Below are positions 37,577-46,238 of a stretch of 64,000 nt of DNA, piece after piece. The DNA lies in NCBI RefSeq assembly GCF_025717675.1, contig NZ_JAJIRT010000001.1, positions 682,001-746,000 on the forward strand, given 5' to 3'. The translations under genes were made by a program, and so were the position numbers. Origin of the DNA: Paucibacter sp. DJ2R-2 (lineage in GTDB: Bacteria; Pseudomonadota; Gammaproteobacteria; Burkholderiales; Burkholderiaceae_C). The notes beneath the pieces were generated by a model. The model worked only from the letters and a program-made list of their open reading frames with translations. It made no database searches and was not told the origin of the DNA. The number at the start of each line of letters is the position of its first letter. The first letter of the stretch is position 1.

Positions 37577-38992
37577 TCAGGCGCTCTGGACCAGCGCCAG
37601 CAAGGCGGCATGAACGCGCTGTACATCGCGGGCCTCGCTGCGCCAGTTGCTGAACGCCGCACGCACGGCCCAGCGGCCGAGGAAGTAGGTCGGCGTCAGA
37701 AACGCCTCTCCGCTGTCGCGCAGTCGCTCCAGAAAGCGCTGCACGCTGGCGGCGTCCGTGCAGCCTGCCACGGCAAAGCAGACGATGTTGAGCCGGACCG
37801 GCGCCAGCAGCTCGAAGGCGGGGCCGCCGTCGGGCCCGGGGGTCAGGTCTTGCTGCAGCAGTTCGGCCAGCAGACGGGCGCAGTCGATATTGCGCCGCAC
37901 GATCTCGGCCTGGCCGGCGCGGCCATAGGCCTGCACAGCAAACCAGGCTGGCAAGGCGCGCCAGCGGCGCGAGTTCTCGGGCGTCAGATGGACGAAATCG
38001 GGGCGCTCGCCGATCTCACCCAGATAGGCCGCCGAGTTCTGGAACACACGCAGCTGCAGGGCACGATGGCGGCTGAACTGCAAGGCGCTGTCATAGGGCA
38101 CGTTCAGCCATTTGTGGCAGTCGATGCACACCGAGTCGGCGCCGTCCAAACCCTGGACCTGAGCGGCCACCCGCTCATCGAGGGCCGCAAAGGCCCCGAA
38201 AGCGGCATCAACATGGAGCCAGAAGGGGTAGCGTGCGCGCAAGGCCAGCAGGGCCGGCAGCTCGTCGAAATCACCGCTGTTGACCGTGCCGGCATTGGCC
38301 ACCACGATCACCGGCGCGCCGGCCTGCGCTTGCAAGGCCAGCTCCAGCGCCTGCGGGTCTATCGCATCACGACCCGGCAAGGTCGCCACCGGATGGACCG
38401 CATTCCGCCCCATACCGAGCATGGACAAGGCCTTGTGGATGCTGGAATGCGCAGCGCCGGACAAGACCGTCACGGGGCCCAGTGCGGCCGCGCCGGCCTC
38501 GCTGACGCGCACACCGCGCTGCTCACCCAGCCATTCGCGCGCCAGGGCCAGGCCGACAAAATTGGACATGGTCGCGCCCGAGACGAAGGCGCCCTCATGC
38601 GCTTCGCTGAGGCCAAACCAGGAACCCAGCTCGCGCACGGTCTGGCGCTCCAGCTCCGGTGCTTCGGAATCCCAGCCGGCGGTCGGATTCTGATCCAGAG
38701 CCGAGGTCAGCCAGTCGCCCATCAGGCTGGCCGGGGTGGCGCCACCGGTGACAAAGCCCAGATAGCGTGGCCCGGCGCTGGCGCTCAGGCGCGGCAGCCA
38801 ACGTTGCTCGAACAGGCGCAAGGCCGCCTCGGCGCCACCTCCGGCTGCGCGCTGCAGCTCAGCCTGCGGAGTCTGCGGCTGCACAGCCACCGGCTGCGAG
38901 TCCAAGCCCTGCAGGCTCTGCAGCGCCGTCGCGCGCGTCTGCGCCAGCAGCTCGGGCAGCGTCTCCAAATCGTGTTTCAACAGCTCATGCAT
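37577..38992 (-). CDS. Group II PLP-dependent amino acid decarboxylase family protein
   Basis: A 471-residue fold-type I PLP enzyme of the aromatic-amino-acid/glutamate decarboxylase family. The PLP lysine lies in D-C-H-K-W-L-N-V-P-Y, the cofactor-pairing Asp in H-V-D-A-A-F-G, and the G-x-x-T-P-A-S-L-M-G-D and S-G-A-T-M-S-N segments match the family. The substrate cannot be read from sequence. I start at the ATG at 38992 with GGAG seven bases upstream. The divergent MocR gene 73 bases away is its likely regulator, which argues for an amino acid or PLP-linked control. Confidence 0.85.
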   Translation of the reverse strand: MHELLKHDLETLPELLAQTRATALQSLQGLDSQPVAVQPQTPQAELQRAAGGGAEAALRLFEQRWLPRLSASAGPRYLGFVTGGATPASLMGDWLTSALDQNPTAGWDSEAPELERQTVRELGSWFGLSEAHEGAFVSGATMSNFVGLALAREWLGEQRGVRVSEAGAAALGPVTVLSGAAHSSIHKALSMLGMGRNAVHPVATLPGRDAIDPQALELALQAQAGAPVIVVANAGTVNSGDFDELPALLALRARYPFWLHVDAAFGAFAALDERVAAQVQGLDGADSVCIDCHKWLNVPYDSALQFSRHRALQLRVFQNSAAYLGEIGERPDFVHLTPENSRRWRALPAWFAVQAYGRAGQAEIVRRNIDCARLLAELLQQDLTPGPDGGPAFELLAPVRLNIVCFAVAGCTDAASVQRFLERLRDSGEAFLTPTYFLGRWAVRAAFSNWRSEARDVQRVHAALLALVQSA

Positions 38993-39030
38993 GGCAAGCT
39001 CCAGGTGATGCAAGCCGCCATGCTAGAGTC

Positions 39031-39060
39031 GATTGGACTGATTCAAGCAATCCAATTCAA
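39031..39060. promoter_or_regulatory. Candidate MocR operator in the divergent promoter region
   Basis: The 73-base gap between the decarboxylase and MocR starts contains inverted arms ATTGGA (39032-39037) and TCCAAT (39051-39056) and a direct repeat ATTCAA (39041-39046, 39055-39060). MocR regulators typically bind repeated sites in such divergent gaps. Role is inference. Confidence 0.45.
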
Positions 39061-39065
39061 ACGCC

Positions 39066-40472
39066 GTGGACTGGCCCCTTCAACCTTCTCTTCTTGCAGC
39101 CTTGCGCGCGGCCCTGCAGCAATCGCCACGCTACGCCGCCCTGGCAACCACGCTGCAAGGCCTGATCCTGCAAGGCGAGTTGCTGCCCGGCGACCGCCTG
39201 CCCGCCGAGCGACGCCTGGCCGACCAGCTGGGTCTGAGCCGCAGCACGGTGGTGGCCGCCTATGCACGCTTGGCCGAGGGCGGCTGGGTCAGCACACGAC
39301 AGGGTCAGGGCAGCAGCGTCTGCGCCGGCCCGCCCGGCCATGTCGCCAGCCGCAAGCGGCGCGTGGCGCTGGGCAGCCCGGCTTTGCGCCGACTCAGCGG
39401 CAGCGAGCACGAGACCTGGATTGATTTCGCCCTGGCCACCGCCGTGCCCGATCTGGCCTGGCTGCAGCCCAGCGCCGCCGCCGCCAGCCTGGTGCTGCGC
39501 GAGAGCGCCTACCAGCCTGAAGGCATGCTGGCCCTGCGCGAGCGCATCGCCGCGCGCTACAGCCGGCAGGGTCTGGCCACGACACCCGATCAGATCCTGG
39601 TTTGCGCGGGCGCGCAGCAAGCCATCAGCCTGGTCGCCCAGCAATACCTGGCGCCGGGCGACTCGGTGCTGATGGAGACACCCAACTACTTCGGCGCCAT
39701 CGATGTGCTGCGCAGCTGCGGCGTGCATCTGGACGGCATCGCCGTGCAAGCCCAGGCCCGGCATGCGCCGGCCTTCATAGCCGCCCTGGCACAAAGCCGC
39801 CACAAGCTCGCCTATGTCTGCCCGGCCCTGCACAACCCCACGGGCCTGAGCTGGAGCCAGGCGGCCGTCGAGCGCCTGGCGCGCACGGCCGCCCAGAGCA
39901 GCTGCCTGCTGCTGGTGGACGACTCCCTGGCCGAGCTGCACTTCGAGGCCTGCCCTCGGCCGCTGCCGGCCGCAGCGGGCGCACCGATCGTTCACATCGG
40001 CAGCCTGTCCAAGACGCTCTGGGCCGGCTTGCGCATCGGCTGGCTGCGGGCACCTGCGCCCATCATCGAGACCTTGCGGCGCGCCAAGGCCAATGCCGAC
40101 ATCGCCTGCAGCTCGCTCAGCGCCGCCCTGGCCTGCGATTTGCTCGACCGCTACGACAGCTTGCTCACGCTCCGGCGCAGCCAGTTGCAGGAGCAAGCCC
40201 GCCATCTGCACGCCTTGCTGCAAGAGCATCTGCCCGGCTGGCATGTGCGCCAGCCCGAAGGCGGCCTGTTTCTATGGGCCGGCCTGCCCGCGCAAGGCCG
40301 CGATGCCTCCGCCTGGGTCGAGACGGCCGCGGCCCTGCGCGTGCGCCTGAGCCCAGGGCCCGCCTTGTCCGTGGGCGCCGGACATGAGCGTCATCTGCGC
40401 CTGGCCTTCACCCAGGCGCCTGCCCTGGCTCGCGAGGGTGTGCTGCGTCTGGCGGCAAGCCTGGCGTGTTGA
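39066..40472 (+). CDS. MocR/PdxR-type regulator (GntR winged helix fused to aminotransferase domain)
   Basis: A 468-residue fusion. Residues about 15-95 form a GntR winged helix (L-P-A-E-R-R-L-A-D-Q-L-G-L-S-R-S-T-V-V), and the rest is a class I aminotransferase fold with the PLP-binding Lys in S-L-S-K-T-L-W-A-G. These proteins bind PLP or its amino acid adduct as effector; some retain transaminase chemistry. The start is a GTG at 39066, the earliest fitting the domain. Divergent from the decarboxylase gene. Its 3' end overlaps the convergent FAD dehydrogenase gene by 65 bases. Confidence 0.9.
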   Translation: MDWPLQPSLLAALRAALQQSPRYAALATTLQGLILQGELLPGDRLPAERRLADQLGLSRSTVVAAYARLAEGGWVSTRQGQGSSVCAGPPGHVASRKRRVALGSPALRRLSGSEHETWIDFALATAVPDLAWLQPSAAAASLVLRESAYQPEGMLALRERIAARYSRQGLATTPDQILVCAGAQQAISLVAQQYLAPGDSVLMETPNYFGAIDVLRSCGVHLDGIAVQAQARHAPAFIAALAQSRHKLAYVCPALHNPTGLSWSQAAVERLARTAAQSSCLLLVDDSLAELHFEACPRPLPAAAGAPIVHIGSLSKTLWAGLRIGWLRAPAPIIETLRRAKANADIACSSLSAALACDLLDRYDSLLTLRRSQLQEQARHLHALLQEHLPGWHVRQPEGGLFLWAGLPAQGRDASAWVETAAALRVRLSPGPALSVGAGHERHLRLAFTQAPALAREGVLRLAASLAC

Positions 40473-41874
40473 TGGCAGCAGTGCCCCAATGGGTCAGGCC
40501 GAGCAGGGCCTGCGGGTCGAACAGGCGCTGCAAGCGGCCCGACCAATCGAGCAGGTTCGTCTCGCTGAGCTGCCAGTAGCTGTCCTGCAGCTGCGGGCCA
40601 ATGCCATGCTCGGCACTGAAGCTGCCCTCGAATTGCTGCACCAGAGCGTAGACCCCGGCGCGCAAGCGCGCCTCATCCAGGGCCGGCGCACTCTGGGGCC
40701 AGACCAGGTTGAAATGCAGGCCGCCATCGCCCAGATGCCCGAAGTCAGCCAGCTCGGCGGCCGCGAAGTGCTCGGCCAACCAGGCGCGGCCGGCCTCACG
40801 GAAGGCCATGAAGTGGCGCCGCGGCAGCGACACGTCGAAGCCCAACACCTTGCCACGCGCGCGCAAGCCTTCGCTGATATGGTGACGCAAGGCCCAACAG
40901 GCGGCGTCGGCCCCGAGCACAGCGTCGCTGACCCGCTCGCCGAACTCGCCTTCCAGCCAAGTTTGCAGCAAGGCCTGCAGATCGAGCTGCTCGGCGCGCA
41001 GATCCGAGCTCAGCTCGACCAGCAGCGTGTACTCGGGCAGATCACCGCCGAACCAGCGCATGCGCTCCGTCCCCAGGTCGCCGCCACAGCTGAGCGCCGC
41101 CTCCATGGCCGGGCGCGACATGCCTTCACAGGCACTGACCAGACTGCCCATCGCCGCCATCAGGCTTTGGTACAGCGGCAGCACGGCTTCCAGGCTGCTC
41201 GGCGACACCAGGGCCACCGCCTGCTGACGTGGGCGGCTGGCGAGCTTGAAGACCGCTTCGCTGATCACGCCCAGGCTGCCCGAGGAGCCGATGAAGAGCT
41301 GCTGCAGCGGCAAGGCGGCATTGTCTTTTTGCAGGCCACGCCCCAGGCGCAAGACCTGACCCTCGGCCAGCACCACGGTCAGACCCAGGGTGTTGGCGCG
41401 CACATCGCCGTAACGCAGCATGCGCGTGCCGCCCGTGTTGTGCGCCAGCATGCCGCCGACGCTGGGGTCGGCGCTCAGGTCGATGGCCAGCATCAAATCA
41501 TGCGCGGCCAGGCGCTCGTTGATCTCGCTGAGCCGGAAACCCGCCGAGACACGCAGCGTGCGGTCCAGCAGGTCCAGCTCGAACACCTCGCGCAGGCGCT
41601 CGGTGGACAGCAAAAGATCGCGTTCAGCGTCCACCGGCGTGGCCGCGCGCACCAGGCCGGTGTGGGCGCCTTGCGGCAGCACACGCAGGCCATGGCGGGC
41701 AGCCAGGGGCAGCAGCTGGGCCAGCTCGGCCGTGCTGGCAGGTCGCGCCAAAGCAGCGGCCTGGCCCGGTGCATAACGCGCCGGTTCCAGATAGCGCGGC
41801 TCGATGGCGCTACCGGCGCTCACATGGGCGGCGCCGCAAATGCGCGCCGCGGCCAGGAGGAAATCCGCCGACAT
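40408..41874 (-). CDS. FAD-linked oxidase, probable D-2-hydroxyglutarate dehydrogenase
   Basis: A 488-residue GlcD-type flavoprotein. The N-terminal FAD-binding PCMH segment shows G-A-H-T-G-L-V-R-A and S-V-G-G-M-L-A-H-N-T-G-G, and the C-terminal part has G-H-L-G-D-G-G-L-H-F-N and S-A-E-H-G-I-G, metal- and substrate-site motifs of D-lactate/D-2-hydroxyglutarate dehydrogenases. Next to an HglS-like dioxygenase it most plausibly oxidises D-2-hydroxyglutarate to 2-oxoglutarate. Last gene of the lysine operon; I start at the ATG at 41874, five bases after the stop of the upstream gene. Confidence 0.85.
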   Translation of the reverse strand: MSADFLLAAARICGAAHVSAGSAIEPRYLEPARYAPGQAAALARPASTAELAQLLPLAARHGLRVLPQGAHTGLVRAATPVDAERDLLLSTERLREVFELDLLDRTLRVSAGFRLSEINERLAAHDLMLAIDLSADPSVGGMLAHNTGGTRMLRYGDVRANTLGLTVVLAEGQVLRLGRGLQKDNAALPLQQLFIGSSGSLGVISEAVFKLASRPRQQAVALVSPSSLEAVLPLYQSLMAAMGSLVSACEGMSRPAMEAALSCGGDLGTERMRWFGGDLPEYTLLVELSSDLRAEQLDLQALLQTWLEGEFGERVSDAVLGADAACWALRHHISEGLRARGKVLGFDVSLPRRHFMAFREAGRAWLAEHFAAAELADFGHLGDGGLHFNLVWPQSAPALDEARLRAGVYALVQQFEGSFSAEHGIGPQLQDSYWQLSETNLLDWSGRLQRLFDPQALLGLTHWGTAAINTPGLPPDAAHPREPGQAPG

Positions 41875-41879
41875 CGGAC

Positions 41880-42896
41880 TCAGCAAGCCGAGACCGCGCC
41901 TTGCGCCGTCATCTTGAAGATGCCGGTGGCATTGCCGGCGTCGAAGGCCAGGTCGAGTTCGCTGCCCACCCGCGCCCGCTCGATGAACTCGTAGAAGGAG
42001 CCCGGCACGGTCAAAGCGATCAACTTTCCTTCGCTCAAGAACTGACGCTGCACCTGAGCGGCATGAAAGGCGGTCTGCTTGACCCGGCCCGAGCGCGAGA
42101 CTTCGATCTTGGCCTTGACCGGCCGTCCCAGGGCACGCTGCGCCTCGGCCAGTGCCTCAAGGTCGGTGACGCGGTCGGTGGCATGGTTGAAAGCCGTGCC
42201 TTCGGTGGCGATCCAGGCCATCTCGGCCGACTCCTGCAGCAGCAGCTGGTAGTCGCTCAAGCTGACCGGGCCATGCTGGCGGTCGAAGCAGGCGATCAAG
42301 CGCGGCAAGAGCGCCAAGGCAGCAGCCCAGGGCAAGGTCTGGTCGCGCGCCAGCTGCTCCAGCCAGGCCATGTCTTGCGGGCCCAGCGGATCGCGGGAAC
42401 TGGCCAGCACGCGCGTCACCGCCGCCTGGAATTCGGCCGAGAAACGCTCGGGATGCAGCTCGGAGACAAAAAACTGGGCAATGTCTTCGGGCATGTCTTC
42501 GTGGCACCAGGCGCGGCCGCTCATCTTGAGCGCCGGCAGCGGGTAGTTGTCGGCCAGGGCAAAGCCCAGCGGGCGCAGCACCCGGGTGATGGCAGCTTCA
42601 CCGGGTGGCAGCGCACCACTGGGCCAGGCCACCGTGCGCAGTGCGCCATGGTCGAAGCACAGGCGCTGGCCGCGGCCCTGCTGCTCGGCCACATAGTCGG
42701 CTGCGGCCGGCACACGCAGCGTGACGTCTCGGAACAGCGCCATATTGAGCGCCTGTGCCAGCTCAGCCCGCGAGACAAGCTCGCCCACGGGCCGCAGCAA
42801 GGCCGGGGCGACCTGCAACTGTGCAAAGGTTTCGGTGGCTGCGGCGGCGCCCAGGGCGCTGTCGAGCAGACGGTACAAGCCGGATTCCAGCATCAT
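41880..42896 (-). CDS. hglS: DUF1338 protein, HglS-like 2-oxoadipate dioxygenase/decarboxylase
   Basis: A non-heme iron enzyme of the DUF1338 family; HglS of Pseudomonas turns 2-oxoadipate into D-2-hydroxyglutarate. The 338-aa product retains the metal triad pattern: His83 and Arg87 in F-D-H-G-A-L-R-T-V, His238 in A-F-N-H-A-T-D-R-V, and Glu303 in S-F-Y-E-F. Spacing matches what I recall of HglS, while the C-terminal part is about 130 residues shorter. I start at the ATG at 42896 with GGAG ten bases upstream; a second ATG follows directly. It sits between the semialdehyde dehydrogenase and hydroxyglutarate dehydrogenase genes. Confidence 0.83.
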   Translation of the reverse strand: MMLESGLYRLLDSALGAAAATETFAQLQVAPALLRPVGELVSRAELAQALNMALFRDVTLRVPAAADYVAEQQGRGQRLCFDHGALRTVAWPSGALPPGEAAITRVLRPLGFALADNYPLPALKMSGRAWCHEDMPEDIAQFFVSELHPERFSAEFQAAVTRVLASSRDPLGPQDMAWLEQLARDQTLPWAAALALLPRLIACFDRQHGPVSLSDYQLLLQESAEMAWIATEGTAFNHATDRVTDLEALAEAQRALGRPVKAKIEVSRSGRVKQTAFHAAQVQRQFLSEGKLIALTVPGSFYEFIERARVGSELDLAFDAGNATGIFKMTAQGAVSAC

Positions 42897-42923
42897 GAGG
42901 ATCGATCTCCAGGCAGGGCAAAA

Positions 42924-42948
42924 CAAAGCCCGGGCATGCCGGGCTTTG
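42924..42948 (-). terminator. Intra-operon hairpin between amaB and hglS
   Basis: A perfect 10-base stem CAAAGCCCGG/CCGGGCTTTG (42924-42933 and 42939-42948) with a five-base loop in the 75-base gap between the two genes, followed on the minus strand by TTTTG. It could act as a partial terminator or mRNA stabiliser that lowers expression of the last two genes. Confidence 0.6.
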
Positions 42949-42971
42949 CGCCATCAATGAAACAGGGGGGG

Positions 42972-44489
42972 TCAGATGTCGAACTTCACGCCTTGTGCCA
43001 GCGGCAGCGAGCGCGAGTAATTGACCGTGTTGGTCGTGCGGCGCATATAGGCCTTCCAGGCGTCGGAGCCGGACTCACGGCCACCGCCGGTTTCCTTCTC
43101 GCCACCGAAAGCGCCGCCGATTTCGGCGCCCGAGGTGCCGATATTGACGTTGGCAATGCCGCAGTCCGAACCGCTGGCCGACATGAAGGCCTCGGCCTCG
43201 CGCACATCGTTGCTGAAGATGGCCGAAGACAAGCCTTGCGGCACCTCGTTCTGCAGGGCGATCGCTTCGTCCAGGGTCTTGTACTTCAGCGTGTACAGGA
43301 TGGGCGCGAAGGTCTCGTGCTTGACGATGTCGGTCTGCGCCGGCATGCGCACCAGGGCCGGCGTGGCGTACCAGGCGTTCGGGTACTGGTTGGCCAGGGC
43401 GCGCTCGCCGCCGGAGACCTCGCCGCCTTGCTCGCGCGCGGCAGCCAGAGCCTTCTGCATGGACTCGAAGCTGGCGCCGTCGATCAGCGGGCCGATCAGG
43501 GTGCCGGCCTCGACCGGGCTGCCGATCTTGAGCTGGGCGCGGGCGCGGTCCAGGCGAGCGACCAGCTCATCATGGATGCTCTCGTGAATGATGACGCGGC
43601 GGGTGGTGGTGCAGCGCTGGCCGGCCGTGCCGTAGGCACCGAACAAGATGCCGCGCACGGCCAGCTCCAGGTCGGCACTGGGCGTGACGATGATGGCATT
43701 GTTGCCGCCCAGCTCGAGCAGGCAACGGCCGAAGCGGGCCGCCACACGCGGGCCGACCGCGCGACCCATGCGGGTGGAGCCGGTGGCCGAGACCAAGGCG
43801 ACCTGGGGGTGGTCCACCATGGCCTCGCCGACGGCGGCCCCGCCGTTCAGTAGCTGGGACAGGTGCGCGGGCGCCGTGCCGCCGGCCGCGTTGTAGCGGG
43901 CCAGCGCGCGCTCGAACAAGGCCTGGGTGGCGATGGCTGTCAGCGGGGTCTTCTCCGACGGTTTCCAGATGCAGCTGTCGCCGCAGACCAGGGCCAGGGC
44001 CGAGTTCCAGGCCCAGACGGCGACGGGGAAGTTGAAGGCCGAGATGATGCCGACCACGCCCAGGGGCAGGTACTGCTCCATCATGCGGTGGCCGGGGCGC
44101 TCGCTGGCGATGGTCAGGCCATGCAGCTGACGGCTCAGGCCGACGGCGAAGTCGCAGATGTCGATCATCTCCTGCACCTCGCCCTCGCCTTCGCTGCTGA
44201 CCTTGCCGGCCTCCAGCGAGACCAGGCGAGCCAGGTCCATCTTGTGCGCGCGCAGCTCTTCGCCGAACAGGCGCACCAGCTCGCCGCGCTTTGGGGCAGG
44301 CACATTGCGCCAGTCCAGGAAAGCGGCATGGGCGCGCGCCACGGCGGCGCGCATGTCTTCAGCGCTGGCCTCGTGGACGGCGCCGAGCGCGGCGCCGTCG
44401 ATGGGCGAGCGCACGTTCAGCGTGCCGCCGGTGAAAGCCGAGGAAGGAACGCCGAGGGCGCTCAGGAGTTCAGTGATGTGCGTAGTCAT
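42972..44489 (-). CDS. amaB: L-2-aminoadipate-6-semialdehyde/piperideine-6-carboxylate dehydrogenase (ALDH7 family)
   Basis: A 505-residue NAD-dependent aldehyde dehydrogenase. Catalytic Cys293 in G-Q-R-C-T-T-T-R-R and general base Glu259 in L-L-E-L-G-G-N-N are present. The G-Q-R-C-T-T-T-R-R context and E-I-G-G-A-F-G-G-E-K-E-T-G-G-G-R-E-S-G-S-D end mark the ALDH7/AmaB subfamily, which oxidises aminoadipate semialdehyde to L-2-aminoadipate. It is 15 bases downstream of the lysine dehydrogenase gene that would supply its substrate. GGAG lies nine bases before the ATG. Confidence 0.92.
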   Translation of the reverse strand: MTTHITELLSALGVPSSAFTGGTLNVRSPIDGAALGAVHEASAEDMRAAVARAHAAFLDWRNVPAPKRGELVRLFGEELRAHKMDLARLVSLEAGKVSSEGEGEVQEMIDICDFAVGLSRQLHGLTIASERPGHRMMEQYLPLGVVGIISAFNFPVAVWAWNSALALVCGDSCIWKPSEKTPLTAIATQALFERALARYNAAGGTAPAHLSQLLNGGAAVGEAMVDHPQVALVSATGSTRMGRAVGPRVAARFGRCLLELGGNNAIIVTPSADLELAVRGILFGAYGTAGQRCTTTRRVIIHESIHDELVARLDRARAQLKIGSPVEAGTLIGPLIDGASFESMQKALAAAREQGGEVSGGERALANQYPNAWYATPALVRMPAQTDIVKHETFAPILYTLKYKTLDEAIALQNEVPQGLSSAIFSNDVREAEAFMSASGSDCGIANVNIGTSGAEIGGAFGGEKETGGGRESGSDAWKAYMRRTTNTVNYSRSLPLAQGVKFDI

Positions 44490-44504
44490 TGCGAGATTCT
44501 CCGC

Positions 44505-45596
44505 TCAACCGATGCTTTCCACTTGGCGCGACTGCTGGTAGGCCTTGCCGAACTCATTGGCCAGGAACTCGGGCAGCGAGACTTCCTCTTGCGACACGAA
44601 GCCCGACTGCGGCAGCTTGCCCTGACGGAACAAGTCGACGGCGGCGCACATGCCGGCCGCGGTGGTGATCTGGATGGCCGACAGCGGGCGGGCGCCGTCG
44701 CGCTCGGCGAAGATCTTGCGGGCGAACACTTCCTGCACCAGGCGGCCGTTCTTCATGCCCGAGACGGTCACGAAGACCAGGACCACGTCCTGCATGGTGG
44801 CCGGCATGCTCTTGCGCATGATGTCCTTGAGCAGTTCCTGGTCGCTCTTCAGGGCCAGGTCGCCGAGCAGGAATTGCATCAGGTCGCGGTGGCCGGGGTA
44901 GCGCACGGTCTTGTAGTCGAGGTTCTTGACCTTGCCGGCCAGAGTTTCGCACAAGGTGCCCAGGCCGCCCGAGGTGTTGAAGGCCTCGTACTCGGTGCCG
45001 TCCAGCGAGAAATGCTCCAGGCCTTCCAGCGGCAAGGCGTCGATCTTCTCGCCGTCGTGGATGCATTCGCAGGGGTGGCAGTACTCGTTGATCAGGCCGT
45101 CGACCGACCAGGTCAGGTTGTACTTCAGGGCATTGGTCGGGAAGGCCGGCAGCGCGCCGACGCGCATTTTGACGTCGTTGAGGCTGTCAAAGCTCTTGGC
45201 CAGATGGGCGGCGACGATGCCGATGAAGCCCGGGGCCAGGCCGCATTGCGGCATGAAGGCGGTCTTGGCGCCTTCGGCGATGCGCATGATCTCCTTGGTG
45301 GCGGCCACATCTTCGGTCAGGTCGAAATAGTGGCAGCCAGCTTCCAGAGCCATATGGGCTGCGGGGATCGCCAGTTGGTAGGGCAAGGCATTGACGATGG
45401 CGGCATAGCCTTTGACCAGGCCGGCCGCGCCGGCGCCGATTTCGGCGATCACCTGGGTGCGGATGCCCTCGGCGGCCAGCACTTGCAAGGCGGCGGCGTT
45501 CTTGTCGAAAACGGTGACTTCGTAATGGCCCGAGCCATGCAGCAAGCGAGCAATGGTTTCACCGATATGGCCTGCGCCCAGCAATGCGATCTTCAT
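44505..45596 (-). CDS. Saccharopine dehydrogenase family protein, probable L-lysine 6-dehydrogenase
   Basis: A 363-residue Rossmann-fold oxidoreductase beginning M-K-I-A-L-L-G-A-G-H-I-G with the NAD motif at residues 7-12. The family includes saccharopine dehydrogenases and the shorter lysine 6-dehydrogenases; length and pairing with AmaB favour the latter, which oxidises L-lysine at C6 to aminoadipate semialdehyde (cyclising to piperideine-6-carboxylate). GAGG lies eight bases before the ATG at 45596. First gene of the lysine operon, divergent from an Lrp-type regulator. Confidence 0.86.
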   Translation of the reverse strand: MKIALLGAGHIGETIARLLHGSGHYEVTVFDKNAAALQVLAAEGIRTQVIAEIGAGAAGLVKGYAAIVNALPYQLAIPAAHMALEAGCHYFDLTEDVAATKEIMRIAEGAKTAFMPQCGLAPGFIGIVAAHLAKSFDSLNDVKMRVGALPAFPTNALKYNLTWSVDGLINEYCHPCECIHDGEKIDALPLEGLEHFSLDGTEYEAFNTSGGLGTLCETLAGKVKNLDYKTVRYPGHRDLMQFLLGDLALKSDQELLKDIMRKSMPATMQDVVLVFVTVSGMKNGRLVQEVFARKIFAERDGARPLSAIQITTAAGMCAAVDLFRQGKLPQSGFVSQEEVSLPEFLANEFGKAYQQSRQVESIG

Positions 45597-45663
45597 TTGA
45601 TTTGCCTCAAGAGGATTGGATGAGCCGCAGTCTAGGCAGAGACGCTGACGAAAAAAAGCCGGA

Positions 45664-45702
45664 GTTCGTCGAACTTTGAAGAGAAAATGACGAATCGTCG
45701 AT
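45664..45702. promoter_or_regulatory. Candidate Lrp/AsnC sites in the lysine-operon divergent region
   Basis: Two related 9-base palindromes, TTCGTCGAA (45665-45673) and ATCGTCGAT (45694-45702), share core TCGTCGA with centres 29 bases apart, close to three helical turns. They lie in the 141-base gap between the divergent lysDH and Lrp genes. Multiple phased weak palindromes fit Lrp/AsnC octamer binding. Role is inference. Confidence 0.5.
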
Positions 45703-45737
45703 GAATTTCGCCACAATGAATCAAACAAGGGTTTCCC

Positions 45738-46238
45738 ATGAGCAGCTCCGAGAACGACCCTGACGCCGCAAGCGCCGCAGTCAAACCTCGTGCGCCGGCC
45801 CAGGCCAAGGACCAGACCGACCGCGAGCTGATCGCCCTGCTGCAGGCCAATGCCCGCGAGAGCACGGCCAATCTGGCGCGGAAATTGGGCGTGGCGCGCA
45901 CCACCGTGGTGGCGCGGCTGGCTCGGCTGGAGGCAGAGGGCGTGCTGGTCGGCTACACCGCCAAGCTCGGTTCGGACGCGGCCGATCGCGGCGTGCAGGC
46001 CTTTGTCGGCATCACCGTGCAGCCCAAGGCCGGGCGCGAGGTGGTCAAGCGCCTGTCGGGCCTGCCCGAGCTGCGCCAACTGGCCTCGGTCAGCGGCGAG
46101 TTCGACTACATGGCCTTGCTGCGCGCCGACTCGACCATGCGCCTGGACGCCCTGCTCGACGAGATCGGCGAGATCGACGGCGTCATCAAGACCACCAGCT
46201 CGGTGGTGTTGGCCTTGCGCGTGGACCGCAGCGCTTGA
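45738..46238 (+). CDS. Lrp/AsnC family transcriptional regulator
   Basis: A 166-residue regulator with a disordered 25-residue N-terminus, a helix-turn-helix (about 28-75, with A-N-L-A-R-K-L-G-V-A-R-T-T-V-V-A-R-L) and a C-terminal RAM ligand-binding domain (G-x-T-V-Q-P-K-A-G-R and V-S-G-E-F-D-Y-M). Lrp-type proteins sense amino acids; its divergent position beside lysine 6-dehydrogenase suggests it responds to lysine or an intermediate. AAGG precedes the ATG. Confidence 0.92.
   Translation: MSSSENDPDAASAAVKPRAPAQAKDQTDRELIALLQANARESTANLARKLGVARTTVVARLARLEAEGVLVGYTAKLGSDAADRGVQAFVGITVQPKAGREVVKRLSGLPELRQLASVSGEFDYMALLRADSTMRLDALLDEIGEIDGVIKTTSSVVLALRVDRSA

Follow-up and report, generated by a model that had tools for sequence, protein, structure and literature searches.

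A proposed compact lysine operon in Paucibacter joins a predicted L-lysine 6-dehydrogenase to an HglS-like dioxygenase

A 64,000-nucleotide stretch of the genome of Paucibacter sp. DJ2R-2 (contig NZ_JAJIRT010000001.1, positions 682,001 to 746,000, hereafter the window) carries four contiguous minus-strand genes that we consider likely to form an operon for aerobic catabolism of L-lysine to 2-oxoglutarate. In the proposed pathway, an L-lysine 6-dehydrogenase (LysDH) would provide entry from L-lysine, and an ALDH7 enzyme would oxidize the LysDH-derived piperidine-6-carboxylate or aminoadipate semialdehyde to L-2-aminoadipate, which a LysN-type aminotransferase encoded elsewhere would convert to 2-oxoadipate. 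The Fe(II) enzyme HglS would then turn 2-oxoadipate and O2 into D-2-hydroxyglutarate and CO2, and a flavin adenine dinucleotide (FAD) dehydrogenase would complete the route by oxidizing D-2-hydroxyglutarate to 2-oxoglutarate. From the protein families, key residues, gene order and conservation read in the DNA, we infer every substrate, which aminotransferase takes part, how the genes are regulated and what flux the route carries. The preliminary description, which placed LysDH and HglS together in one compact lysine operon, is largely supported in outline. Its four minus-strand genes in pathway order opposite an Lrp-type gene are borne out by the open reading frames, which are present for all five genes, and by the Pfam families; position 46238, where that description ended the locus, is where the Lrp gene stops. 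The features of the locus are as follows.

44505..45596, minus strand: L-lysine 6-dehydrogenase-like enzyme (LysDH), 363 amino acids
42972..44489, minus strand: ALDH7, predicted L-piperidine-6-carboxylate / aminoadipate semialdehyde dehydrogenase, 505 amino acids (NF050084, PDB matches)
41880..42893, minus strand: short-form DUF1338/HglS, predicted 2-oxoadipate dioxygenase-decarboxylase, 337 amino acids (PF07063, aligned residues)
40408..41874, minus strand: FAD-linked D-2-hydroxyacid dehydrogenase, proposed D-2-hydroxyglutarate dehydrogenase, about 488 amino acids
45738..46238, plus strand: Lrp/AsnC-family regulator, divergent from LysDH (Pfam AsnC_trans_reg and HTH_AsnC)
45597..45737, no strand: divergent regulatory region with palindrome AGTTCGTCGAACT, a putative Lrp operator

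The intergenic gaps are operon-like, with 15 bp between LysDH and ALDH7, 78 bp between ALDH7 and HglS, and 5 bp between HglS and the FAD gene given its ATG start at 41874. The LysDH start is corrected here to the ATG at 45596, the one that fits the homologues. Pathway collections already contain each individual step, and the novelty lies in the arrangement of known parts: the individual reactions are all of familiar kinds, the linkage is lineage-specific, and no new chemistry is involved. A search of openly licensed literature at the level of titles and abstract starts found no description of LysDH joined to HglS, and the words 2-oxoadipate, aminoadipate and hydroxyglutarate are absent from the main text of the GapMind catabolism paper (PMC9007349).

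The third enzyme encoded in the operon is the DUF1338 protein, whose retained catalytic and specificity residues support its earlier naming as HglS-like. It scores 84.7 bits against HGLS/PF07063, well over the gathering cut-off of 25, and its nearest solved relative is PDB 3iuz (348 bits). Its match to the Pseudomonas putida enzyme HglS (6w1g) is weak, at 19.3 bits, and its score of 25.5 lies under the cut-off of 600 of the NCBIfam HglS equivalog NF050083, so it is not filed under that model. In the numbering of the 336-residue alignment row, which is one less than the count from 42893, H82, R86 and H237 align with H70, R74 and H226 of 6w1g. The alignment to 6w1g ends before the YEF motif common to 3iuz and 3lho, and we equated E302 with E294 by way of that motif. 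The resulting His-His-Glu metal triad and the specificity arginine are invariant in 21/21 family sequences. In the available part of the P. putida study (PMC7286885), 2-oxoadipate activity is reported for HglS, for Escherichia coli YdcJ and for low-identity plant enzymes that carry the same triad and arginine, and the metal motif is said to be common to DUF1338 structures, 3IUZ included. The window enzyme is proposed to share the chemistry of the P. putida D-lysine route described there, from 2-oxoadipate to D-2-hydroxyglutarate, with equivalents of the triad and Arg74 kept. It differs from that route in having a short-form DUF1338 protein close to 3iuz, entry by a predicted L-lysine 6-dehydrogenase, and a linked FAD dehydrogenase of another type.

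We next asked how widely this arrangement is retained. A family sample of 299 genomes was searched at E 1e-20 or better for HglS and E 1e-60 or better for LysDH, and two sets of loci were inspected, namely the best 80 of 550 candidate loci (the named loci) and 25 same-family loci from HglS genomes other than the host. HglS occurs in 26/299 genomes, host included. LysDH occurs in 99/299, comprising 24 of the 26 HglS genomes versus 75 of the 273 others (Fisher p 6.6e-11, with relatedness ignored). LysDH, ALDH7 and HglS are adjacent in 22/25 same-family loci, each of which also has the divergent Lrp gene. The FAD gene is present in 18/25; of the other seven loci, L059 is truncated where its contig ends. 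Among the named loci, 29/80 combine LysDH, ALDH7 and Lrp with HglS, and 24 of these 29 also carry the FAD gene. The conserved adjacency expected by the preliminary description was found in both sets, and the retained LysDH–ALDH7–HglS order with its divergent Lrp gene is more than chance. The 29 LysDH-linked loci belong to Roseateles, Pelomonas, Mitsuaria, Paucibacter, Inhella, Rivibacter and other genomes that are related or unclassified. When LysDH linkage is mapped on a tree of 85 HglS proteins, 2 label changes suffice, versus 26.0 in shuffles, and the second falls at L098, whose 3.4 kb contig stops short of the position of LysDH; the linkage thus looks like one recruitment on the HglS tree, and the branch uniting the LysDH-linked rows has support of 92/76, under the starred level. 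The host itself has a single match for the HGLS family and a single match for LysDH (E 0.001). In a class-level sample of 369 genomes, 9 matched, host included; the other eight matched weakly (best 36.6 bits) and were not used for context. In addition, 14 of 72,556 plasmid records contained a relative, all at no more than 61.5% identity.

Within the genus, the distribution of HglS weighs against the simplest reading. HglS is accessory there, found in 3/18 genomes versus 12/18 for LysDH; the proposed joining of an L-lysine entry to an HglS exit is upheld by its conserved linkage and qualified by the nine of twelve LysDH genomes that lack an HglS match. All nine (L083-L091) have ALDH7 and Lrp adjoining LysDH, and in L083-L086 a GGDEF gene flanks ALDH7 at 314-537 bp with nothing found between. 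These genomes favour an alternative in which the chief role of the Lrp/LysDH/ALDH7 core is to supply aminoadipate or piperideine-6-carboxylate in response to stress or for nitrogen, with HglS as an optional drain and no growth pathway, as does a review stating, in its available part, that bacterial lysine catabolism enzymes respond to osmotic stress (PMC7253579). Against it, HglS, where present in the family sample, lies in the same operon in 23/26 genomes, host counted, and we regard this alternative as rather unlikely.

The same comparisons suggest that the HglS part has a history separate from that of the core. In G668, a genus genome with HglS, identity to the window proteins is 97-98% for LysDH, ALDH7 and Lrp versus 63-74% for HglS, MocR and the decarboxylase, and this contrast, together with the patchy occurrence of HglS in the genus, is why the HglS part seems of different history. 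The FAD gene was not found at the G668 locus (L082). Compared with window 37577-42893, its stretch from HglS to the decarboxylase is at 63-74% and the flanking genes at 83-98%, as if swapped by recombination. Further context came from 20 loci fetched from the 99 LysDH genomes: eight at 67-82% identity have ALDH7 in 8/8 and Lrp in 7/8, and twelve at 46-56% identity have Lrp in 11/12 and ALDH7 in 1/12 (L178). An HglS–FAD module was probably added, within the Roseateles group (Burkholderiales), to an Lrp/LysDH/ALDH7 core of wider occurrence, and gained or lost among relatives.

The last enzyme of the proposed pathway contains the Pfam domains FAD_binding_4 and FAD-oxidase_C. In an alignment of 62 rows (49 distinct), Arg386, His434, His441, Glu475 and His476 of human D-2-hydroxyglutarate dehydrogenase are kept in 62/62. 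The window enzyme shares with the human enzyme (6lpn; PMC7801405, available in part) the fold, the FAD type, these five catalytic and zinc residues and Asn443, and differs by Lys401 to Gly, Tyr432 to Phe and Thr390 to Ser. The first of these changes is a second point against our proposal: Lys401, which binds the distal C5 carboxylate in the human enzyme, is absent in all 62 rows (Gly in 44, Ala in 18), and the enzyme is therefore better described as one that works like, rather than one that is, a human-type D-2-hydroxyglutarate dehydrogenase. The retained catalytic residues and the gene position support the original assignment, and the missing distal-carboxylate lysine qualifies it. An alternative is that the enzyme acts on another D-2-hydroxy acid, such as D-lactate, with D-2-hydroxyglutarate handled elsewhere. 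The Gly or Ala at position 401 and the Phe at position 432 in 58/62 rows fit this reading, as Lys401 and Tyr432 correspond to small residues in D-lactate dehydrogenases and GlcD in the accessible text of the same source; moreover, D-lactate dehydrogenases match the fold almost equally well, and in 5/29 LysDH-linked named loci no FAD gene was seen next to HglS, although one of these loci (L128) lies at a contig end. That source also places a hydrophobic residue at the Asn443 position of GlcD and of most D-lactate dehydrogenases, and the retention of Asn443 in 62/62 rows, with Ser or Thr at the Thr390 position in 61/62, speaks against a D-lactate-type enzyme. Relatives of the FAD gene also adjoin HglS in Collimonas, Undibacterium, Planctomycetota and Holophagaceae loci. 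The gene directly after HglS in Ramlibacter sp. WS9 (L153:8017-11148) is of the YdiJ type, scoring 1460.8 against the NF049975 cut-off of 1350, and replaces the short FAD enzyme; the window enzyme scores 48.6, far below that cut-off. On this balance action on another acid appears unlikely, and a D-2-hydroxyglutarate role is proposed from gene position, retained catalytic residues and YdiJ at the same place in Ramlibacter. Members of one protein cluster lie near HglS in L044, L045 and L050, the L050 member (L050:8673-9254) being a MOSC-domain protein by Pfam, and the FAD gene was not found in the L045 and L050 loci.

Taken further, these observations admit a broader model, to which we give about even chances: a CoA-independent, O2-dependent L-lysine-to-2-oxoglutarate operon in which a resident LysDH–ALDH7 core acquired a portable HglS–dehydrogenase exit in a single event close to the root of the Roseateles group. 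The model also includes a distinct HglS-associated D-2-hydroxyglutarate dehydrogenase subfamily, shared by Burkholderiales, Planctomycetota and Holophagaceae, in which the distal carboxylate is bound in the absence of the canonical lysine. If the operon works as proposed, an L-lysine pathway complete but for one trans-encoded transaminase would reside in four genes that can be deleted or moved in environmental bacteria, HglS would be extended to direct L-lysine degradation in bacteria, and a new dehydrogenase subgroup would be named. The HglS exit would then be a module with varied partners, LysDH here and, in Polaromonas and Burkholderia relatives, aminotransferase clusters. Related strains that differ in whether they carry the HglS part would constitute a natural experiment.

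The two entry enzymes are consistent with the proposed pathway. ALDH7 scores 432 bits against Pfam Aldedh and 817.8 bits against NF050084, the NCBIfam model for L-piperidine-6-carboxylate dehydrogenase, over its cut-off of 730; Pcd and aminoadipate semialdehyde dehydrogenase (AASADH) entries are among its best PDB matches, in agreement with the semialdehyde dehydrogenase first suggested. The predicted LysDH carries the Pfam saccharopine dehydrogenase NADP-binding (45.9 bits) and C-terminal (68.7 bits) domains, and by fold and profile its nearest solved relative is L-lysine dehydrogenase, with saccharopine and carboxyspermidine dehydrogenases more distant in fold; this supports its identification as an L-lysine 6-dehydrogenase. 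Identity to the Pyrococcus horikoshii enzyme 3abi is about 23%. The motif Y228-x-[T/S]-x-R232 has its Y and R invariant in 32/32 sequences, and the window enzyme has Y228, T230 and R232. In the available part of PMC6697735 the substrate-binding residues of Geobacillus stearothermophilus LysEDH are Y238, T240 and R242, which have the same spacing; the correspondence, read from spacing, is tentative. The window enzyme shares fold and length class with 3abi and LysEDH, has a motif of similar form, and unlike them adjoins ALDH7 and HglS. Were the first enzyme instead a saccharopine dehydrogenase or other amine dehydrogenase, as its Pfam domain names and the sources naming its relatives would have it, entry would be by the saccharopine route or from a different diamine; with the fold nearer to L-lysine dehydrogenase than to saccharopine dehydrogenase, we find this improbable and rejected it as first choice.

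Transamination had been the only step left unassigned, and the operon itself indeed carries no transaminase gene, although LysN-type genes stand near HglS in relatives and elsewhere in the host. A LysN-like aminotransferase lies around HglS in 21/80 named loci, 21/21 of them also with ALDH7 and one also with the FAD gene; the protein from one such cluster (L058, genome G467) has Thermus thermophilus 2-aminoadipate transaminase as its best PDB match, at 234 bits. These HglS–aminotransferase–ALDH7 clusters, found in Polaromonas, Trinickia, Burkholderia, Caballeronia and Paraburkholderia, share the HglS subfamily and ALDH7 with the window and, unlike it, have a transaminase gene and no LysDH found in the stretch. 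A LysR-type gene stands opposite in the inspected clusters L058, L120, L132 and L170, with family search backing LysR for L120 only. In the Paraburkholderia kirstenboschensis cluster a DAO-family FAD oxidase (L170:9822-11015) sits between ALDH7 and the aminotransferase and is perhaps a pathway-feeding oxidase. The host has a standalone LysN-type gene at C29:163090-164238, the top of 13 genome matches, whose product matches the T. thermophilus transaminase best in the PDB at 330.3 bits. This gene type is present in 29/29 genomes examined, in the 24 that have HglS as in the 5 that do not, and is therefore a candidate for a general rather than a dedicated transaminase. That the MocR-type gene abutting the operon is the missing transaminase, as the best PDB match of its pyridoxal 5'-phosphate (PLP) domain might suggest (the same transaminase, at 123.6 versus 330.3 bits), is highly improbable and was rejected as first choice given its GntR DNA-binding domain, its opposite strand, its divergence from a decarboxylase gene 52 bp away, and its rarity (close relatives in 2/25 same-family and 3/80 named loci).

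The operon is probably Lrp-controlled. The divergent protein has AsnC helix-turn-helix and ligand-binding domains (49.7 and 55.3 bits), both over the Pfam cut-offs, and the word TTCGTCGAA occurs on either strand in 26/51 distinct divergent regions, a raw count among related rows. The palindrome AGTTCGTCGAACT is a putative Lrp operator. It and a second palindrome, GACGAATCGTC, lie in window 45597-45737, and related words recur in many relatives. Scans returned no sigma-70 promoter and no terminator and were uninformative, and PADLOC gave no match.

Two neighbouring genes complete the region.

39066..40472, plus strand: MocR-type GntR-aminotransferase regulator, probably outside the pathway (NCBIfam MocR_like_YczR, 399 bits, below the cut-off of 487)
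37577..39013, minus strand: PLP-dependent decarboxylase (PF00282, 126 bits; no NCBIfam cut-off reached)

Together (window 37577-40472) they form a divergent pair, 52 bp apart, that resembles a regulator and its target, and the pair is seen too in L038, L057/L112, L082/L096 and L098.

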